Shown piece after piece: positions 32,405 through 39,592 of a DNA stretch of 50,748 nucleotides. This stretch comes from Desulfobacula sp. Lineage in GTDB: Bacteria > Desulfobacterota > Desulfobacteria > Desulfobacterales > Desulfobacteraceae. Made by a program: the position numbers and the translations under genes. The stretch lies in NCBI RefSeq assembly GCF_030611305.1, contig NZ_JAUWQB010000017.1:1-50748 (forward strand), written 5' to 3'. How positions within the stretch are numbered: position 1 is the stretch's first letter; every line of letters begins with the position of its first letter. A model generated the notes under the pieces. The model saw nothing but the letters and a program-made list of their open reading frames with translations. It was not told the origin of the DNA and ran no database searches.

Positions 32405-34495
32405 TCAGTTCGCCTTTGCTATTGGAAAACCTGTATCCGGGTTATAGCAGAGCCTACAGCAGTTCAGGCATCTTTCAGCTTCTTTATGGGCCGCATCTTC
32501 CGGCAGAACAAGATCAACCTCAATCATTGAATCAAGCCTTTGATCAACAGGAATTTCCGGCATTTTGGCCCGTGCTGTTTTTTTAAGGCCAGGAACTTTT
32601 GTGAAAATGGATTCAGGAATCCTCTTTTTTTGTAAAGAATCTTTTACCGGTTCCACCGGTTCTCCTTTTAAGAACAGATCAATGGACCGGGCAGAACGCC
32701 TTCCGCTGCCGATGGCATCTACAACAAGAGCCGGCCCAGTAGCAGAATCCCCGGCCGTAAAAATATAGGGTATGGAAGCCTGCAGGATTGCCGGGTCATT
32801 ATCAATGGTATTCCATCTTGTCAGTTCCAGTTCCGTCATTCTTGGATGGGGGTCCTGATCTTTAAATGAGGCATCCGGAGACTGACCAATGGCCGAGATG
32901 ACCATTTCCACATCAAGAAGGGTTTCTGAGCCTTCAATGGGTACGGGACGTCGTCTGCCGCTGGCATCGGGTTCACCCAGTTCCATTTTAAGGTATTCGA
33001 GCTGGGCCACTTTGCCGTTGTCATCGGCGATGACTTGAGTGGGGGCAGCCAGGAAAACAAATTCAACGCCTTCTTCTTCTGATGCGACAATCTCAACTTC
33101 ATTGGCCGGCATCTCGTTTCTGGTTCTTCTGTAAACAATGTATACTTTTTCAAGACCAAGCCTTAAAAGAGTTCTTACACAGTCAATTGCACTGTTCCCG
33201 CCCCCTACTACAGCTGCAGTTCTCCCCAGCTTTATTTTTTCACCCCTGGAAAATCTCTGGAGAAAATCAATTCCTTTAAAACAACCATCGAGATCCTCTC
33301 CTTCAATGCCAAGGGAATAATCTTCCCAGGCACCCACACCCAGTAATACGGCTTCATAGCCCGAGGCCATCAAGGATCCAAGCCCGAAATCAACACCAAA
33401 TCTAACATTACAAAAAGCCTTGATTCCAAGGTCAAGAATCCCCTGGATTTCCCAGTCAAGAACCTTTTTGGGAAGCCTGTACTCAGGGATACCGTATCTG
33501 ATAATGCCGCCAAGCTTTGGCATGGCCTCAAAGATATCCACCTGATGTCCTATCCTTCGAAGGAAGAATGCACAGGATAGCCCGGCAGGCCCGCCACCGA
33601 TCACAGCCACTTTTTTGCCTGTATCCGGTGCACATTTAATGGGGATCCTGGAACCTGAATTCATTTCATAATCAGCAACAAAGCGTTTGAGCTGGTTAAT
33701 GGAAACCGCTTCTTCTTCAATACCTCTTCTGCACTCATCTTCACAAGGATGGGGACAGACCCTGCCACAGGCAAGGGGTAAAGGGTTTCTCATGCGGATG
33801 GTCTGGACAGCTTCTTTATATTTGCCTTCCCTGAGCTGGTTGATATATCTGGGTATATTGATTTCAGCAGGACAGGTCTGGGCACAGGGTGCCAGAGCAT
33901 CCTGTGTCTGATTAAACTTCATGAGTTGTTCGGAAAGGGTTGTTACCTTTATAATATCTTTTGGGCAGGCCAGCTGGCAGGCACCACAGCCCACGCATTT
34001 ATCATCATCCACAACAGGATAGCCGTTGGGTCCAATTTCAAGAGCATCAAATTGACATGCTTTGACACAATCGCCAAGACCCATACATCCCACACCACAA
34101 ACCCGTTTGCCGCCAAATACAGCAGCCATGGCTTTACAGGAGGAAATTCCCATATAGTGGTATTTATCATCGGCACGATTTCCGCCTTCACAAATATTAT
34201 AGGATAACGGGCTTTCAGCTGCGCCTGCATCTACACCCATTATTTTTGCAACTGCTTCCACCCCTTCCTGGTTTGATATAACACATACAGAAGGTTGCGC
34301 TAGGCCATTTACAACTGCTTCGGCAGCAGCTGAGCATCCGGCATATCCGCAACCACCGCAGTTTGCGGCGGCAAGGTTGTTTTCCACCTGTGCAATTCTC
34401 GGGTCTTCATATACATAAAAGACCTTGGATGAAAGGCTGAGTACAATACCGCATACAGCACCAATGCCTAACATAAACAATAAAGCTGGGATCAT
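32405..34495 (-). CDS. rnfB: RnfB fused to a GltD-like FAD/NAD(P)H oxidoreductase
   Basis: 696 residues. Part 1 is RnfB: membrane helix 1-25, the 4Fe-4S domain with NCGGCGYAGC (C46, C49, C54, C71), and two ferredoxin clusters (C133/137/143/147 and C167/170/173/177). Part 2 (from about 200) matches the small subunit of glutamate synthase and dihydropyrimidine dehydrogenase: Cys pairs at 204/208 and 243/247/251/255, an FAD Rossmann site VAVIGGGPAGLSCA (about 296-309), an NAD(P)H site AAVVGGGNSAIDC and the second FAD contact YIFTAGDSATGPALV. A C-terminal C-x2-CC-x2-C cluster lies near 678-685. Ordinary RnfB is 190-330 residues. Last gene of the rnf cluster. Confidence 0.93.
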   Translation of the reverse strand: MIPALLFMLGIGAVCGIVLSLSSKVFYVYEDPRIAQVENNLAAANCGGCGYAGCSAAAEAVVNGLAQPSVCVISNQEGVEAVAKIMGVDAGAAESPLSYNICEGGNRADDKYHYMGISSCKAMAAVFGGKRVCGVGCMGLGDCVKACQFDALEIGPNGYPVVDDDKCVGCGACQLACPKDIIKVTTLSEQLMKFNQTQDALAPCAQTCPAEINIPRYINQLREGKYKEAVQTIRMRNPLPLACGRVCPHPCEDECRRGIEEEAVSINQLKRFVADYEMNSGSRIPIKCAPDTGKKVAVIGGGPAGLSCAFFLRRIGHQVDIFEAMPKLGGIIRYGIPEYRLPKKVLDWEIQGILDLGIKAFCNVRFGVDFGLGSLMASGYEAVLLGVGAWEDYSLGIEGEDLDGCFKGIDFLQRFSRGEKIKLGRTAAVVGGGNSAIDCVRTLLRLGLEKVYIVYRRTRNEMPANEVEIVASEEEGVEFVFLAAPTQVIADDNGKVAQLEYLKMELGEPDASGRRRPVPIEGSETLLDVEMVISAIGQSPDASFKDQDPHPRMTELELTRWNTIDNDPAILQASIPYIFTAGDSATGPALVVDAIGSGRRSARSIDLFLKGEPVEPVKDSLQKKRIPESIFTKVPGLKKTARAKMPEIPVDQRLDSMIEVDLVLPEDAAHKEAERCLNCCRLCYNPDTGFPIAKAN

Positions 34496-34532
34496 AATTT
34501 CACCTTATATTTTTGAACTTCCTCTTTATTTT

Positions 34533-35108
34533 TTAAACCATTCCTTTAAAAGACATAAATGTCAAAGCAATAATGCCTGCAGTCACAAGACCGATGGATG
34601 TATCCTGCAAGGGTTTTGGAACTCTGGCCAGGTTAACTCTTTCCCTGATGCTGGCAAAGAGTACGAGAGCAAGCCCAAACCCGATAGCGTATGCCGTGGC
34701 AGAGACAACTGCTTGAACAAAGGTATATTCTTCGTTAATATTGATCAGGCAGACACCCATAACTGCGCAATTGGTGGTGATGAGCGGCAAAAAAATTCCC
34801 AGTCCGGCATAAAGCCCTGGAATACTTTTTTTCAAAAACATTTCCACAAACTGAACCAGGGACGCAATTACCAGGATAAAGGAAACCGTACGCAAATACT
34901 CAACGTCAAGCGCTTTTAACAGGTAAGTATCCACCATCCACGTGAGAGTGCCGGCCATAACAAGGACAAAGACAACGGCCATTGCCATGCCCACGGCAGT
35001 CTCCATTTTCTTGGATGTGCCAAGGAACGGACAACAACCGAGGAACTGGGCAAGGAGAATGTTATTGATAAAGATACAGCTTATTGCAAGGACGAATAAA
35101 TCACCCAT
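34533..35108 (-). CDS. rnfA: RnfA, membrane subunit of the ion-translocating ferredoxin complex
   Basis: 191 residues with six transmembrane helices. Diagnostic segments are NNILLAQFLGCCPFLGTSKK (about 15-34), whose Cys ligates the intramembrane [2Fe-2S] cluster shared with RnfE, GIFLPLITTNCAVMGVCL with the second ligand Cys, and the last helix. RnfA and RnfE form the pseudo-symmetric core that carries electrons across the membrane. Gap of 15 nt from rnfE and 37 nt to rnfB. Confidence 0.95.
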   Translation of the reverse strand: MGDLFVLAISCIFINNILLAQFLGCCPFLGTSKKMETAVGMAMAVVFVLVMAGTLTWMVDTYLLKALDVEYLRTVSFILVIASLVQFVEMFLKKSIPGLYAGLGIFLPLITTNCAVMGVCLININEEYTFVQAVVSATAYAIGFGLALVLFASIRERVNLARVPKPLQDTSIGLVTAGIIALTFMSFKGMV

Positions 35109-35123
35109 ATTATTATCTCCTTT

Positions 35124-35732
35124 TTATTTTTTACCAATGAGGTTCATCAAACAGAGCATGAGTCCAAGACCGACAAAAGCACCGGGTGCCTCAATCATGA
35201 ATTTGAACGGAAGAAAGTTTCCTCCCATTTCAAAAATAGGAACTCCACCCCAGACGGTAATTGTTCCATTACCTAAAAATTCTCTGACTGCACCCAGGGA
35301 AGCAAGGGATAACGTAAATCCCATACCGATACCCAGCCCGTCAGCAATGGACATGACAGGACTGTTCTTGCTGGCAAAGGCTTCTGCCCGGCCAAGAACG
35401 ATACAGTTCACAACAATCAAGGGGATGAAAATACCCAGTTTCAGGAACAATTCATATGTATAAGCCTGCATCATCAGCTCCACAATGGTAACAAAGGTGG
35501 CTATGATGACTATGAAACAGGCGATTCTGACTTTTGACGGAATAACATTTCTAAGAAGAGATATTAAAAGATTGGAAAAAACCAGAACAAAGGTGGTTGC
35601 AACACCCATCCCGATTCCGTTTTCAACTGATTTTGTAACCGCAAGGACCGGGCAAAGTCCTAAAACCAGCCTGAAAGGAGGTATCTCAGCCCAGAGTCCT
35701 TTTGTAAATTCTTTTGCTAAGGATTGTGCCAT
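35124..35732 (-). CDS. rnfE: RnfE, membrane subunit of the ion-translocating ferredoxin complex
   Basis: 202 residues, six transmembrane helices, homologous to RnfA in inverted topology. It opens AKEFTKGLWAEIPPFRLVLG and then GLCPVLAVTKSVENGIGMG, the [2Fe-2S] ligand region. IFIPLIVVNCIVLGRAEAFA holds the second ligand Cys. Normal length. Between rnfG and rnfA, with gaps of 26 and 15 nt. Confidence 0.95.
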   Translation of the reverse strand: MAQSLAKEFTKGLWAEIPPFRLVLGLCPVLAVTKSVENGIGMGVATTFVLVFSNLLISLLRNVIPSKVRIACFIVIIATFVTIVELMMQAYTYELFLKLGIFIPLIVVNCIVLGRAEAFASKNSPVMSIADGLGIGMGFTLSLASLGAVREFLGNGTITVWGGVPIFEMGGNFLPFKFMIEAPGAFVGLGLMLCLMNLIGKK

Positions 35733-35758
35733 ATTTTTTTCTCCTAAAATATTTTGCC

Positions 35759-36340
35759 TTATTTCATCTGCTTGACAATTTCAGGTTTTAGTTTCTGATA
35801 AATTTCTTTTGCCTGGGCTGCAGCAACACTAACTCCTTTTGAGGTAATGGTTGCACCGGACATGGCATCAATAACGCCGCCGCCATTTTTGAGGGCAAAA
35901 TTTGTGTCCATTTTAAGGCCTGAAAATTGAGAGACAAAGGAAAGGTCTTCTTTGGCCCTTGATCCGATGCCCGGGGTTTCAGCATGGGTGGTCACCCTTA
36001 CATCCACAATTTCGTCGGTATCCAGGTTGATGCCCACCATAAGTCCGATAGGACCACCATAAGCGCCTCCTTTTGTTTCAAAGGCAATTGCTTTTGAACC
36101 ATCTGAAAGCTTACCCGGGAAAATCTGCAATTCAATATCATCAGTCTTTATTGTAAATCTTTCTGCCAGAGGATCATTGGTGGCTTCCGGAAATATATCT
36201 TGAATAGCAGGCGCTTTCTGAAATTTTAAAACCTGATTTTCAATTTGTACCTCGGTTCCTGATTTTACTACAGCAAGCAGGCCGCCTGAAACAGCTGTCA
36301 ATACTGTTAAAACCACAACCATACTAATCATTTCACGCAT
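35759..36340 (-). CDS. rnfG: RnfG, FMN-carrying periplasmic-facing subunit
   Basis: 193 residues. An N-terminal helix (about 3-25) anchors the protein, followed by an FMN-binding domain. GGVIDAMSGATITSKGV (about 155-171) contains SGAT, whose Thr takes the covalent FMN phosphoester. THAETPGIGSRAKED is the other conserved stretch. It passes electrons between RnfD and the RnfA/E core, or to an external cytochrome. Its ATG overlaps the rnfD stop by 8 nt. Confidence 0.93.
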   Translation of the reverse strand: MREMISMVVVLTVLTAVSGGLLAVVKSGTEVQIENQVLKFQKAPAIQDIFPEATNDPLAERFTIKTDDIELQIFPGKLSDGSKAIAFETKGGAYGGPIGLMVGINLDTDEIVDVRVTTHAETPGIGSRAKEDLSFVSQFSGLKMDTNFALKNGGGVIDAMSGATITSKGVSVAAAQAKEIYQKLKPEIVKQMK

Positions 36341-37301
36341 TGTTTACTCCCTTTCCCAAAGCTTTTGGTCTAATTGTGTCGACTAGGGGGTTCACAAGGT
36401 TCACTAACAGGATCGCCAAAACAGTACCATCGGCATAAGCTCCGATGTTTCTCATCAGGATGATCATTACAGCAGCAAAAAATCCGTAAATAAACATGGG
36501 AATCCTGTTTGCCGGAGAGGATGAATTCTCAGTGGCAAGAAAGAATGCTCCAAAGAGTGTATATCCTGAAAAAAGATGGAGCATGGGTCCTGCATAGGTA
36601 TCCGGGTTTGCCATGCTGAACGCCAGGGCAGTTACAATGATACCTGCAATAAATGAAACCGGAATTTCCCACCGGATATATCCCCTTAAGATCAGGTAGA
36701 TACCACCGATAATAAGGCCAAGCCCAAAGGTGGAACCAATAGCGCCCACCTGTTTGCCCATGATAAGATCACCTATAGGAAATAGACCTGCGACCTCATA
36801 GGCTCCCTGGAACTTAAGGGCAGCCAGCGGTGCAAGGGCGGTAAAATCGAATTCATAATTAATATAGGCAGTATCGAAATCAAAAAAGACCTTCCAGGAA
36901 AGCATTAAAAAGGCCATTCCCACAAGGGCCGGGTTAAACGGGTTGGCTCCGATACCACCGAAAATCATTTTACCGATAACCACTGCAACAAAAGTTCCGG
37001 TAATGACAAGCCACCATGGGGATGTGGCCGGAAGCATCATACCGAAAACAAGTCCGATAACGGCAGAATCCAGATCACCGATAGAGATCTTCTTTTTGGA
37101 TATGATATTTAATATAAGCTCCCAGACCATTGCACTGGAAAGAGATAGTGCAAGCACACCAACTGCTGGTGCGCCGAACTGAATAATACCAAAAATGACT
37201 GCCGGGAGGGTGGCAATCATTATATTCAGATTCATTTTAAAAAGACTATCTCCATCATGCCAGAAAGGTGCGTGGGATACTGTTAATTTGTTATTATTCA
37301 T
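36333..37301 (-). CDS. rnfD: RnfD, membrane flavoprotein subunit
   Basis: 322 residues with about nine transmembrane helices, the main ion-translocating subunit together with its covalent FMN. SHAPFWHDGDSLFKMNLNIM at the start, then GGIGANPFNPALVGMAFLM and GYTLFGAFFLATENSSSPAN are RnfD/NqrB landmarks. I cannot place the covalent-FMN Thr with confidence; GAIGSTFGLG is the nearest candidate. It overlaps rnfG and lies 14 nt after rnfC. Confidence 0.93.
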   Translation of the reverse strand: MNNNKLTVSHAPFWHDGDSLFKMNLNIMIATLPAVIFGIIQFGAPAVGVLALSLSSAMVWELILNIISKKKISIGDLDSAVIGLVFGMMLPATSPWWLVITGTFVAVVIGKMIFGGIGANPFNPALVGMAFLMLSWKVFFDFDTAYINYEFDFTALAPLAALKFQGAYEVAGLFPIGDLIMGKQVGAIGSTFGLGLIIGGIYLILRGYIRWEIPVSFIAGIIVTALAFSMANPDTYAGPMLHLFSGYTLFGAFFLATENSSSPANRIPMFIYGFFAAVMIILMRNIGAYADGTVLAILLVNLVNPLVDTIRPKALGKGVNNA

Positions 37302-37315
37302 TGGCAGTCTCCATT

Positions 37316-38587
37316 CTAAACCTCTGCTCTAAGTTTTAAAATCTCATGTTTTCCAAGCCGGATATATTGGAATAACGGTATCTTTGCAGTACAGACGTAT
37401 GCGCAGAGACCACATTCAATACAAGACTCAAGATCATATTTATCAGCAGCCTCTTCATACTGGTCAGCTTCAAGGTATCGTACCAGAAGATTCACAGGGA
37501 CATTTGCAGGGCAGATCCGAAGACAGTTGCCACAATTCACACACGGATAATCTGATACCTCAGGGATGATATCCCGGTCCTGAATCATCACTGTATCCAT
37601 ATCAGGTAGGACAGGATGGTGATGTGTGTAAGTTGCAAATCCTTTCATGGGCCCACCGATGACAATTCTGTCCTGTTCGTTGACATGAATGCTGAAGGTA
37701 TTGAAAATTTTGCGTAAAGGTGTTCCAATGGTGGCCTTAACCCTGTATTGAGTTCCCTGTTTTCCTATAACCGTCAGAATTTTTTCAAAATCCGCAGATT
37801 TTGTCTTGTATGCTCTGGCTAAAGAGACTACGGCTTCAGCAGTGATAAAACAAACCCCCATATCTTCAGGTGTTTTTCCTGCAGGAAGTATCATGCTTAA
37901 ATGGTCTTTTAAAATCATTGCCGGTAAATTAGAAGGATATGTCAAAGCGGTTTTGAATACCTGAATCGAATCAAATCCTCCTTGGATATTTAAGCCTTCC
38001 GGTATAGTGATACAAAGTTTAGGAACACGGGTTATCTTTTTTAAAACCTGCGCCCCTTTTTTTATCTCATCCAAAAATTTCAGAGTTATATACTGATTGG
38101 TTGTTGATAAAAGATCCATGTCTGCACAGGTAATGACAATGGTATTAATTTTAACATCATCATTGGCAAGGATTTTTAGCGGAGGAGCTCCCGGCAGTGT
38201 CCTTAAATATTCGTCAGCAGAGGCAATATCATCCTTTAAATCATATGTTATCGAATCTGTTTGGGTTGTCTGGCTCTGATCATTTTTGATAACAAGATAG
38301 GTGGAGATATTGGCAAAATCATCCGAATAAGTGTCAATAGTTCTGATGGTTCCTGTGACGGGAGAAATTGTATACTCTGTACTTTGATTGTAAAGGCGTA
38401 ACTTTTCTCCCTTTTCAACCGCGTCCCCTTTTTTTATTAAAGCCTGCCTTGTACTGTCAATGGGTTCATTCAATAATAAAGTAAGGTTGGACGGGATGGG
38501 TATCGGCTCCGGCTCTTTAGGATCCGGTTCCACAAGATCATAGTCGAGTCTTGGTTTGGTTAACGTGAAAAAAGATCGTTTAATCAT
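37316..38587 (-). CDS. rnfC: RnfC-like soluble subunit lacking the NADH/FMN glycine motif
   Basis: 423 residues, within the usual RnfC range. The C-terminus is typical: CVNCGNCLRICPANVPVNLL and, 38 residues later, CIECGLCAYVCTAKIPL, two 4Fe-4S clusters, with VIGGPMKGFA before them. The middle is not typical. The glycine-rich G-x-GGAGFPT loop and the GAECEPY segment that hold NADH and FMN in ordinary RnfC are absent, and that position reads LRTLPGAPPLKILANDD then INTIVITCADMD. It probably does not use NADH directly, and the oxidoreductase module on RnfB may replace this function. First of the six rnf genes, 74 nt after the cytochrome. Confidence 0.88.
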   Translation of the reverse strand: MIKRSFFTLTKPRLDYDLVEPDPKEPEPIPIPSNLTLLLNEPIDSTRQALIKKGDAVEKGEKLRLYNQSTEYTISPVTGTIRTIDTYSDDFANISTYLVIKNDQSQTTQTDSITYDLKDDIASADEYLRTLPGAPPLKILANDDVKINTIVITCADMDLLSTTNQYITLKFLDEIKKGAQVLKKITRVPKLCITIPEGLNIQGGFDSIQVFKTALTYPSNLPAMILKDHLSMILPAGKTPEDMGVCFITAEAVVSLARAYKTKSADFEKILTVIGKQGTQYRVKATIGTPLRKIFNTFSIHVNEQDRIVIGGPMKGFATYTHHHPVLPDMDTVMIQDRDIIPEVSDYPCVNCGNCLRICPANVPVNLLVRYLEADQYEEAADKYDLESCIECGLCAYVCTAKIPLFQYIRLGKHEILKLRAEV

Positions 38588-38661
38588 AATAAGTCCTTGT
38601 TTTGTAAAAAGCTTAGATCATTCATTGTCGTTAATATTTAAGATATAAAAATCTAAATTAG

Positions 38662-39027
38662 CTATAATGAATGACACGTATTACATTCTACCGGACCTGC
38701 GCCAATATCTTCATGGCATCCCTTGCACTGAGCATGAAATGCATCAGCTCTTGATAGTAAGTCTTCATCACCTGTCTCTTCATGGCACTCACTGCAGTTG
38801 TAGGTTTCATCATCTTCAATGTTATGATGGCAGTCCAGGCAATCTTCCGTATAATCGCCTGTGTGTACTGAATGGGTGAATAAAACTTTACCGGCTTTGT
38901 TCTGAAACATCATGCGTACTGGTTCTTCAGGTGCAGGGGGAGTAAAAGAGGCATAGCATATAATTCCTGTGATCAAAAATATGATCATAATTAATATAGC
39001 TACTTTTAGGTCTCGTTGTGATGTCAT
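38662..39027 (-). CDS. Membrane-anchored tetraheme cytochrome c (c3/c7 type)
   Basis: 121 residues. A hydrophobic N-terminal helix (about 8-28) can act as signal or anchor. Four CxxCH sites follow: CLDCH, CSECH, CKGCH and CNTCH. Four extra His (in FTHSVH, the second His of CHH, and DAFH) could be the distal axial ligands, so bis-His hemes are likely. It lies directly upstream of rnfC on the same strand, as multiheme cytochrome genes do in Desulfovibrio and Methanosarcina rnf clusters. It probably exchanges electrons with the periplasmic side of Rnf. Confidence 0.92.
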   Translation of the reverse strand: MTSQRDLKVAILIMIIFLITGIICYASFTPPAPEEPVRMMFQNKAGKVLFTHSVHTGDYTEDCLDCHHNIEDDETYNCSECHEETGDEDLLSRADAFHAQCKGCHEDIGAGPVECNTCHSL

Positions 39028-39130: not shown

Positions 39131-39592
39131 TTAGGGAATGGTGCAATCGGCCGGGATGATATGTGGTTTTTTTCTGACAAGGAAAGGCTTATAGGCTTCT
39201 TTTTTTGAAAGCGAGTTGTTTTTTTTCCGGATGATATAAAAGGAGAGTCCAAAAAATAAAAACCCTGAAATCATGGAAACAAAGGAGGGGTCCATTTGAA
39301 GAGAAGGTGCAAGACTGTTTCCGATCAATGCACCGATGATCAGTAAAATAATGGGAAATACATATAAAAAAAATGTTAAGAAAAGCATTGGTCTGGTTTC
39401 AAGTCCAATGAGGACATGATCCCCTTTTTCTACATTAAGCGTGTTTTTAACCGTAATGGTCATTTCTTTTAGACTGCCTGCTGTTCCGCAACCTTCTTTT
39501 GAAGAGCAGGATTCGCATGCACCGGATCTGGTTGTTTTTATCCAGGCAATAGACTGGTTTGCTTTGGTTACAATTCCGTTTTCAGTGATCAT
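39131..39592 (-). CDS. rseC: RseC/MucC-family membrane protein
   Basis: 153 residues. The N-terminal soluble part has a Cys cluster (ACESCSSKEGCGTAG, about 29-43) and the beta-rich VEKGDHVLIGLETRPML. Two transmembrane helices follow (about 69-90 and 98-118), then a basic tail. RseC-like proteins are linked to SoxR reduction and Rnf/Rsx function in gamma-proteobacteria. Codirectional with and 103 nt upstream of the cytochrome gene, so probably part of the rnf operon. Confidence 0.85.
   Translation of the reverse strand: MITENGIVTKANQSIAWIKTTRSGACESCSSKEGCGTAGSLKEMTITVKNTLNVEKGDHVLIGLETRPMLFLTFFLYVFPIILLIIGALIGNSLAPSLQMDPSFVSMISGFLFFGLSFYIIRKKNNSLSKKEAYKPFLVRKKPHIIPADCTIP

Follow-up and report, generated by a model that had tools for sequence, protein, structure and literature searches.

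Rnf2 complexes with an RnfD lacking the covalent-FMN motif: a possible ferredoxin/NADPH:cytochrome c pump in Desulfobacula sp.

The 50,748-nucleotide stretch of DNA analyzed here (contig NZ_JAUWQB010000017.1 of Desulfobacula sp., RefSeq assembly GCF_030611305.1; hereafter the window) carries a gene cluster for a modified Rnf complex, with an RnfC that lacks its NADH loop and an RnfB fused to a GltD-like domain. The gross architecture of this complex was already published in 2016 as "Tol2-type" or "Rnf2" (PMC5109826), the name Rnf2 being used in contrast to the Rnf1 of Desulfovibrionaceae (PMC11887813). The new point of our analysis, absent from the first-pass annotation of the window, is the apparent loss of the flavin mononucleotide (FMN) site of RnfD across the whole clade of complexes with such a loop-less RnfC, which makes the mechanism of a known system directly testable. 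Judged from the sequence, the output flavin sites are broken and the input chain is intact, a NADP-type module sits on the input subunit and a cytochrome gene leads the cluster. We lean towards regarding Rnf2 as an ion pump whose NAD+-reducing output half has been dismantled, and which would function as a reversible ferredoxin/NADPH:cytochrome c pump with its exit at RnfG.

In this proposal, electrons would enter at RnfB from ferredoxin, and those of NADPH would also enter via the fused module, through its flavin adenine dinucleotide (FAD), two [4Fe-4S] clusters and the RnfB clusters. They would then cross the iron-sulfur centre of RnfA/E to the RnfG flavin and leave it on the periplasmic side towards the cytochrome, the movement of Na+ or H+ being tied to the input half (RnfB/RnfA/E/RnfG). 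The reaction is probably reversible, i.e. ferredoxin and NADPH could be produced with periplasmic electrons and the ion gradient, and the fused domain would not be a bifurcating site. The complex would act as a ferredoxin/NADPH:cytochrome c oxidoreductase with the tetrahaem cytochrome of the cluster. By functional analogy, the nucleotide would enter on the input side as in Na+-NQR, and the exit to a cytochrome c would be like that of the methanogen Rnf (PMC4023990). Among the alternatives offered by the first-pass annotation, a complex that connects the pools of ferredoxin, NAD(P)H and periplasmic cytochromes is the one that fits best.

Flavin sites of RnfD and RnfC

In solved Rnf complexes, electrons pass from the RnfG flavin to the covalent FMN of RnfD, then to a riboflavin and to the RnfC clusters (PMC11889175, PMC9588780). 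The threonine that binds the RnfD FMN is Thr156 in Acetobacterium woodii and Thr153 in Clostridium tetanomorphum (PMC11889175, PMC9588780), and Arg130 and Glu185 of the latter are named as FMN contacts (PMC9588780). This threonine is absent from the RnfD of the window. Ala157 (codon at positions 36,831-36,833; this and all other window features below are on the minus strand) is aligned with it, and Met129 (36,915-36,917) and Ser190 (36,732-36,734) stand in the places of Arg130 and Glu185, respectively.

The same residues were counted in 168 loci that have RnfC together with an RnfD of 230 residues or more (165 after removal of three duplicates). Loop-less loci are over-represented in this set, as its loci from genome records (80 fetched) were chosen for similarity to the loop-less clade, and one locus with an RnfC cut at the contig end (L131), set aside in the locus survey described below, is counted here as loop-bearing. 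The FMN threonine is present in all 45 loop-bearing loci and in 5 of 123 loop-less ones (5/120 without the duplicates), as well as in 3/3 Nqr loci, which were excluded from the Rnf counts. In the phylum survey alone the figures are 45/45 versus 4/47. The [ST]xAT motif is found in the aligned linker in 44/45 loop-bearing loci versus 0/123 loop-less loci, and the sole loop-bearing exception (L100) still has the threonine. The contact arginine is conserved in 45/45 loop-bearing and 0/123 loop-less loci, and the contact glutamate in 45/45 and 4/123. We found no mention of a full complex with an RnfD devoid of its FMN site in the literature consulted, from which subscription journals and supplements are mostly missing.

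The first-pass annotation had reported that the segments of RnfC that bind NADH and FMN are missing, and alignment with the RnfC chains of PDB entries 8ahx, 7zc6 and 9eri bears this out. The glycine loop (GxGGAxFP) and the ECEP segment of canonical RnfC were both sought in the window protein and are replaced there (residues 128-160, positions 38,108-38,206; here LRTLPGAPPLK and CADMDLL). The Tol2-type RnfC was described as devoid of NADH-oxidoreductase and SLBB domains (PMC5109826), and no match to Complex1_51K or SLBB was obtained with the window RnfC at E≤0.01. The loss concerns the nucleotide/flavin site, i.e. the loops, and not the domain or the fold, because, of the 74 aligned RnfC (67 loop-less and 7 canonical), 48 still match Complex1_51K at E≤1e-3 and because the AlphaFold2 model of the window RnfC (predicted local distance difference test score of 91.6) matches the solved chains 8ahx_C and 9eri_C with template modelling scores of 0.80-0.81 (0.81 for 9eri_C). 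This retained fold of RnfC could accommodate a cryptic NADH site, which would leave the complex an ordinary ferredoxin:NAD+ Rnf, and sulfate-reducer Rnf is treated as NAD-linked in the literature (PMC4215793, PMC11887813). Since RnfC has lost the FMN/NADH loops and RnfD its FMN site, we give such an ordinary complex very little credence.

Conservation of whole columns was also compared between the two halves of the complex. Columns conserved in at least 93% of loop-bearing Rnf were lost in loop-less Rnf at 48/85 positions of RnfC and 25/72 of RnfD, versus 4/34 in RnfA, 1/26 in RnfE and 0/11 in RnfG. As a control, the comparison was repeated with a sister loop-bearing clade, which has a mean tree distance of 2.02 to the other loop-bearing Rnf and 1.88 to the loop-less Rnf (60 sampled pairs). 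With this clade as reference, 61/164 columns of RnfC and RnfD are lost in loop-less Rnf versus 10/164 in the other loop-bearing Rnf that serve as control, and 8/122 versus 15/122 columns of RnfA, RnfE and RnfG. When the other loop-bearing loci serve as reference instead, the corresponding values are 57/157 versus 5/157 and 13/96 versus 8/96. As the excess falls mostly in RnfC, the claim for RnfD depends less on this column count than on the named FMN residues.

The RnfB-GltD fusion

The fusion protein (696 residues; 32,405-34,495) starts with an RnfB portion (residues 1-190; 33,926-34,495) that has a helix at 2-25 in the model, the membrane anchor, and three [4Fe-4S] motifs. It is followed by a GltD/StnC-like portion (residues 196-683; 32,447-33,910) with two cluster motifs and FAD and NADP-type Rossmann folds. 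The FAD and NAD(P)H sites and cysteine clusters noticed at first in this extension are confirmed by matches to Fer4_20 and Pyr_redox_2 at 202-598, and a C-terminal CLNC motif is found at 676. RnfB proteins of about 700 residues with NAD-binding sites have been reported for Desulfobacula toluolica Tol2 and Desulfococcus multivorans (PMC5109826).

A search of the proteins of 297 genomes of the phylum and of loci from named records yielded 70 RnfB-GltD rows, i.e. 69 distinct proteins, since L190 duplicates L032 in truncated form. Fifty-seven of them are located within 1.5 kb of rnfA/E (the flank is short for several of the other 13), and one sits in a single-contig genome (G161). The two parts are thus genuinely joined, and an assembly error as the source of the fusion is rejected. 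The two rnf places of this single-contig genome seem to fit those published for D. multivorans. The 17 checked cysteine columns from C46 to C255 are invariant in 70/70 rows, and C676 and C679 are present in 69/70, the remaining row being cut. A pseudogene is rejected as well, in view of these invariant cluster cysteines and of published proteomics of D. multivorans, in which five of the six Rnf2 subunits were detected in all conditions and RnfA2 in six (PMC5109826). In some genomes (e.g. G232, G036 and G208), the fused gene is placed away from the cluster of rnfCDGEA and the cytochrome gene.

Among solved structures, the GltD-like domain is closest to the Nfn-ABC large subunits (9bov, 9n5u) and StnC (8oh5), and NfnB and GltD are more distant. 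The EAxRCLxC piece, N-terminal in NfnB, stands at the C-terminal end of the fused domain, as in Nfn-ABC and StnC. Where NfnB has a glutamate (Glu117) as ligand of the FAD-adjacent cluster, all 70 rows have a lysine (Lys270 in the window, codon at 33,686-33,688), which is equivalent to K170 of StnC. The StnC subunit of the Stn transhydrogenase shares with the window protein the GltD-like FAD/NADPH module, the cluster lysine and a CxxC motif at the C-terminal end of the domain, and differs from it in being soluble and fused to a NuoG domain, whereas the window module is fused to a membrane-anchored RnfB (PMC10482914). As the StnC flavin is reported to be non-bifurcating (PMC10482914), the bifurcation that had initially been thought possible is now disfavoured. 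An NfnB-like site for electron bifurcation or confurcation with NADPH in the RnfB-GltD domain would agree with the resemblance to NfnB in fold and motifs and with the conservation in 70/70 rows of Arg340, in the motif taken to hold NfnB R201. Such a site is improbable given the lysine, the closer kinship with Nfn-ABC and StnC and the lack of an NfnA-like partner among the cluster genes.

Concerning the nucleotide, the window protein has the 2'-phosphate motif YRR of the NADP(H)-specific GltD/Nfn family at residues 455-457 (33,125-33,133). In NfnB the NADP phosphate is bound by this motif, which also distinguishes NADP-using from NAD-using DsrL (PMC7596348), and the nucleotide of the fused domain is predicted to be NADP(H) rather than NAD(H). 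In a tree of 78 fusion rows, an alpha clade of 59 rows, the window included, keeps the FAD and NADP motifs, and YRR is found in 59/78. The 19 rows of the beta clade (one being the duplicate L190) have lost the second Rossmann motif and YRR, and their nucleotide site is degenerate. Nine of these beta rows are part of rnf clusters (L036, L046-L049, L058, L107, L137 and L145) and the others are not. In the clusters with a beta row, a recognisable NAD(P) site is missing from RnfC and from the linked RnfB alike; a genome with such a cluster can hold an alpha copy elsewhere (G184).

For the locus survey, 99 of 121 non-window RnfC matches were fetched, the other 22 being mostly the weakest, and a match to the pattern G.GGA.FP defined the loop. 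Counting the window, 49 loci are loop-bearing and 47 loop-less, and a further 4 (three Nqr and one cut at a contig end) were set aside. RnfB is fused in 21 and unfused in 11 of the 32 loop-less loci with a complete RnfB on the same strand (L093, with an RnfB cut at the contig end, was dropped from the unfused count, and 14 loop-less loci have no readable same-strand RnfB), and it is fused in 0/48 loop-bearing loci.

These counts bear on the first-pass suggestion that the pyridine-nucleotide chemistry has moved from RnfC to the RnfB fusion. Restated with NADP, electrons would pass from the RnfC clusters via the GltD-domain FAD to NADP+, making the complex an ion-pumping ferredoxin:NADP+ oxidoreductase. 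All 21 rnf-linked fusions of the survey accompany a loop-less RnfC, the alpha-type fusions keep their FAD and NADP motifs and RnfB contacts RnfC in solved Rnf (PMC11889175, PMC9588780), as this relocation would have it. A simple relocation of NADH chemistry fails because the nucleotide site is gone from the beta clade of fusions and because RnfB is unfused in part of the loop-less complexes. The suggestion is also weakened by YRR, which predicts NADP(H) and not NAD(H), and by RnfB being the input and not the output subunit. Furthermore, the RnfD flavin link is broken, and in the published A. woodii Rnf the nearest clusters of RnfB and RnfC are more than 30 Å apart. Relocated output, even with NADP, is therefore quite unlikely in our opinion.

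Several RnfB-GltD genes were observed in other surroundings. On contig C139 of the window's own genome (L232:2962-8010), a beta-type paralogue of 688 residues is divergent to a pair of molybdopterin formate-dehydrogenase-like frames (377 and 528 residues); the Pfam match spans the break between them, which would fit an in-frame selenocysteine codon. In L233:7332-12849, a beta-type gene adjoins genes for RseC, a HydB/StnB-like protein (NuoF with an extra ferredoxin domain) and a thioredoxin-like 2Fe-2S protein according to Pfam, and L235:4680-10282 has, by eye, apparently the same neighbours. This set possibly encodes a membrane-anchored Stn-like complex with RnfB-GltD replacing StnC; for comparison, L234:6993-9937 has a beta-type gene beside RseC. 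In L244:7383-14469, an alpha-type gene has no rnf genes next to it; a membrane redox cluster that includes a 541-residue 4Fe-4S protein and a small three-CxxCH protein follows about 2 kb downstream. A remnant of rnfB-gltD, consisting of two short overlapping frames, follows rnfA in L038:12884-13395, which suggests that the operon has lost its fused gene. After it come apparent toxin-antitoxin genes, as read from the first residues. GltD-like sequences were also seen by eye in two further contexts. A 1487-residue HdrA-like protein with a GltD-like stretch adjoins MetF-like and 4Fe-4S genes on contig C154 of the window's genome (L249:4910-9373), and a 595-residue GltD protein without the RnfB anchor (L247:7470-9257, family f47) comes after apparent 2-oxoacid:ferredoxin oxidoreductase and succinyl-CoA synthetase genes.

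Phylogeny and the electron exit

Of 46 loop-less loci, 32 have a multihaem gene (at least three CxxCH) no more than 600 bases upstream of rnfC, versus 0/46 loop-bearing loci. In a quick maximum-likelihood tree of RnfD, RnfE and RnfA (96 rows), the loop-less loci form one clade (45/45, support 100). On this tree the loop state changes once, the fusion three times (L093 included) and the cytochrome five times. The associations thus correspond to one ancient event and are not countable as independent, and the correlation of loss with fusion was rejected as independent evidence. When rooted with Nqr, the first split sets the unfused loci of families f47 and f27 (cytochrome in 6/8) apart from the rest. 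In one locus of family f49 (L127), the genes are, in order, that of a ten-haem cytochrome, rnfCDGEAB and apbE, an operon order that has been published for Desulfovibrio alaskensis (PMC4841214). This family, also with a loop-less RnfC, branches within the loop-less clade among fused members, the support values being mixed (93, 32 and 99). The clade thus appears to include the Desulfovibrio-type operon, the link to Desulfovibrio being gene order in f49 only, with the ten-haem gene in L106 and L127 and apbE tested in L127. The NCBIfam model RnfG_DVU2794 was rejected as a marker of Desulfovibrio-type Rnf, as it matches 24/24 RnfG at E≤1e-5, canonical ones included. We advance more tentatively, and at somewhat less than even odds, that in sulfate reducers of the loop-less clade, including those with the dhcA-rnfCDGEAB-apbE operon, this complex is not a ferredoxin:NAD+ oxidoreductase. 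It would be a half-path pump from which the flavin return through RnfD and RnfC is gone, with pumping by the input half alone and exit from RnfG to a c-type cytochrome, NADPH being an extra input through the StnC-like module in the group of the window. That ferredoxin:NAD+ coupling could not be demonstrated in vesicles of D. alaskensis (PMC4841214) speaks for an exit at RnfG.

Several facts weigh against an exit at RnfG. As the first-pass annotation stated, RnfC keeps both 4Fe-4S clusters (dicluster match), and their eight cysteines are invariant in 74/74 aligned RnfC. This invariance, which the exit at RnfG leaves unexplained, is the strongest contrary fact. In RnfD, the riboflavin-contact asparagine is retained in 111/123 loop-less loci, and the position of the riboflavin-contact aspartate holds Glu in 96 and Asp in 26 of them. 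Since the RnfC cysteines and this asparagine are kept, the output half may still carry electrons. The column excess of RnfD alone is small with the sister clade as reference (8/40 versus 5/40; 18/65 versus 4/65 with the other loop-bearing loci as reference). Besides, 14/46 loop-less loci have no upstream multihaem gene, and the co-losses in loop-less Rnf are not independent events. Finally, D. alaskensis mutants in the operon cytochrome dhcA showed little phenotype, while Rnf was needed on several donors (PMC4215793); other periplasmic cytochromes possibly substitute.

The U-shaped path could also have been kept, with a cytochrome haem or a non-covalent flavin replacing the RnfD FMN and electrons still passing by riboflavin and the RnfC clusters to a cytosolic acceptor. 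A haem or a loosely bound flavin in this place would explain the invariant RnfC ligands and suit the retained asparagine, and a non-covalent flavin has been proposed for RnfD-like subunits (PMC10979944). No acceptor is known for such a path, and the FMN contacts of RnfD are lost in 123/123 (Arg) and 119/123 (Glu) loop-less loci. We rate a preserved path through RnfC as unlikely, though the most serious of the alternatives considered here.

An exit at RnfG can be set against several known systems. The window agrees with the published Rnf2 of D. toluolica, D. multivorans and other Desulfobacteraceae in its RnfB of about 700 residues with a nucleotide-binding domain, its RnfC without detectable NADH and SLBB domains and its cytochrome in the cluster. 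The published passages on Rnf2 (PMC5109826) are silent on the loss of the RnfD FMN, on the NADP-type and non-bifurcating signature, on the degenerate fusion clade and on a clade shared with Desulfovibrio-type Rnf. The Rnf of Methanosarcina acetivorans is similar in its operon cytochrome c, the absence of NAD(P) use and a proposed exit at RnfG; it differs in being archaeal and in reducing methanophenazine, and no RnfB-GltD fusion is mentioned in the text consulted (PMC4023990). Na+-NQR has its NADH site on the input side, and NqrA, the homologue of RnfC, is described as without redox cofactors (PMC12174285). It differs in using NqrF and in keeping the FMN threonine of RnfD/NqrB, whereas Rnf2 keeps the RnfC clusters. 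Two-subunit Nqr/Rnf-like systems have an RnfD-like subunit without the conserved FMN threonine and a proposed one-way electron export, but they have no RnfA, B, C or E, and a NAD-binding domain is fused to the RnfD-like subunit (PMC8238504, PMC10979944).

According to PMC5109826, the electron partner of the Tol2-type RnfC is still to be identified and the mode of action awaits verification, and the Desulfovibrio literature models Rnf as ferredoxin:NADH (PMC4215793). With the RnfD flavin site lost across the clade, the question of the Rnf2 electron partner becomes one of simple yes/no tests. A periplasmic exit would change models of ATP yield, schemes of H2 and formate cycling and the part played by the operon cytochromes in abundant marine carbon oxidisers. 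Such complexes would also be a natural experiment on Rnf ion pumping, as a pump consisting of the input half only would favour coupling at RnfA/E over coupling at RnfD.

The cluster and its genome

All elements of the cluster were found where the first-pass annotation had placed them, wholly on the minus strand, in the transcription order tetrahaem cytochrome, rnfC, rnfD, rnfG, rnfE, rnfA and rnfB-gltD; the six-subunit set (RnfA, B, C, D, E and G) is complete. The leading gene (38,662-39,027) encodes a class III (c3-like) cytochrome of 121 residues with four CxxCH (Cytochrom_CIII, E 1.9e-12), a hydrophobic N-terminal segment and a calculated pI of 4.6. As TmcA it scores 61 bits, below the cut-off of 114 of NCBIfam NF045722. 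RnfC (423 residues; 37,316-38,587) matches RnfC_N and the 4Fe-4S dicluster family, and RnfD (36,333-37,301) has 322 residues. RnfG (193 residues; 35,759-36,340) retains the SGAT flavinylation motif, Thr164 (codon at 35,849-35,851) being the predicted covalent FMN site, and RnfE (202 residues; 35,124-35,732) and RnfA (191 residues; 34,533-35,108) retain the cysteines of the membrane cluster, as in canonical Rnf. RnfA, B, D, E and G pass the TIGR subfamily cut-offs, and RnfC, with 173 bits, is below that of TIGR01945 (246). A gene for an RseC/MucC-like protein (39,131-39,592) is located just upstream of the cytochrome gene, and RseC-like genes recur next to RnfB genes in several loci.

The genome of the window amounts to 3.57 Mb in 159 contigs. 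Its RnfC is 67-85% identical to those of metagenome-assembled genomes labelled Desulfobacula and at most 87% identical to those of metagenome-assembled genomes labelled only Proteobacteria. It also encodes Nqr on contig C46 (L050), with NqrB, D and E above their cut-offs, NqrA just below and an NqrF-like frame; NADH oxidation therefore has another route. The NqrA-like protein encoded there (L050:3830-5179) has two C-terminal cysteine motifs resembling those of RnfC.

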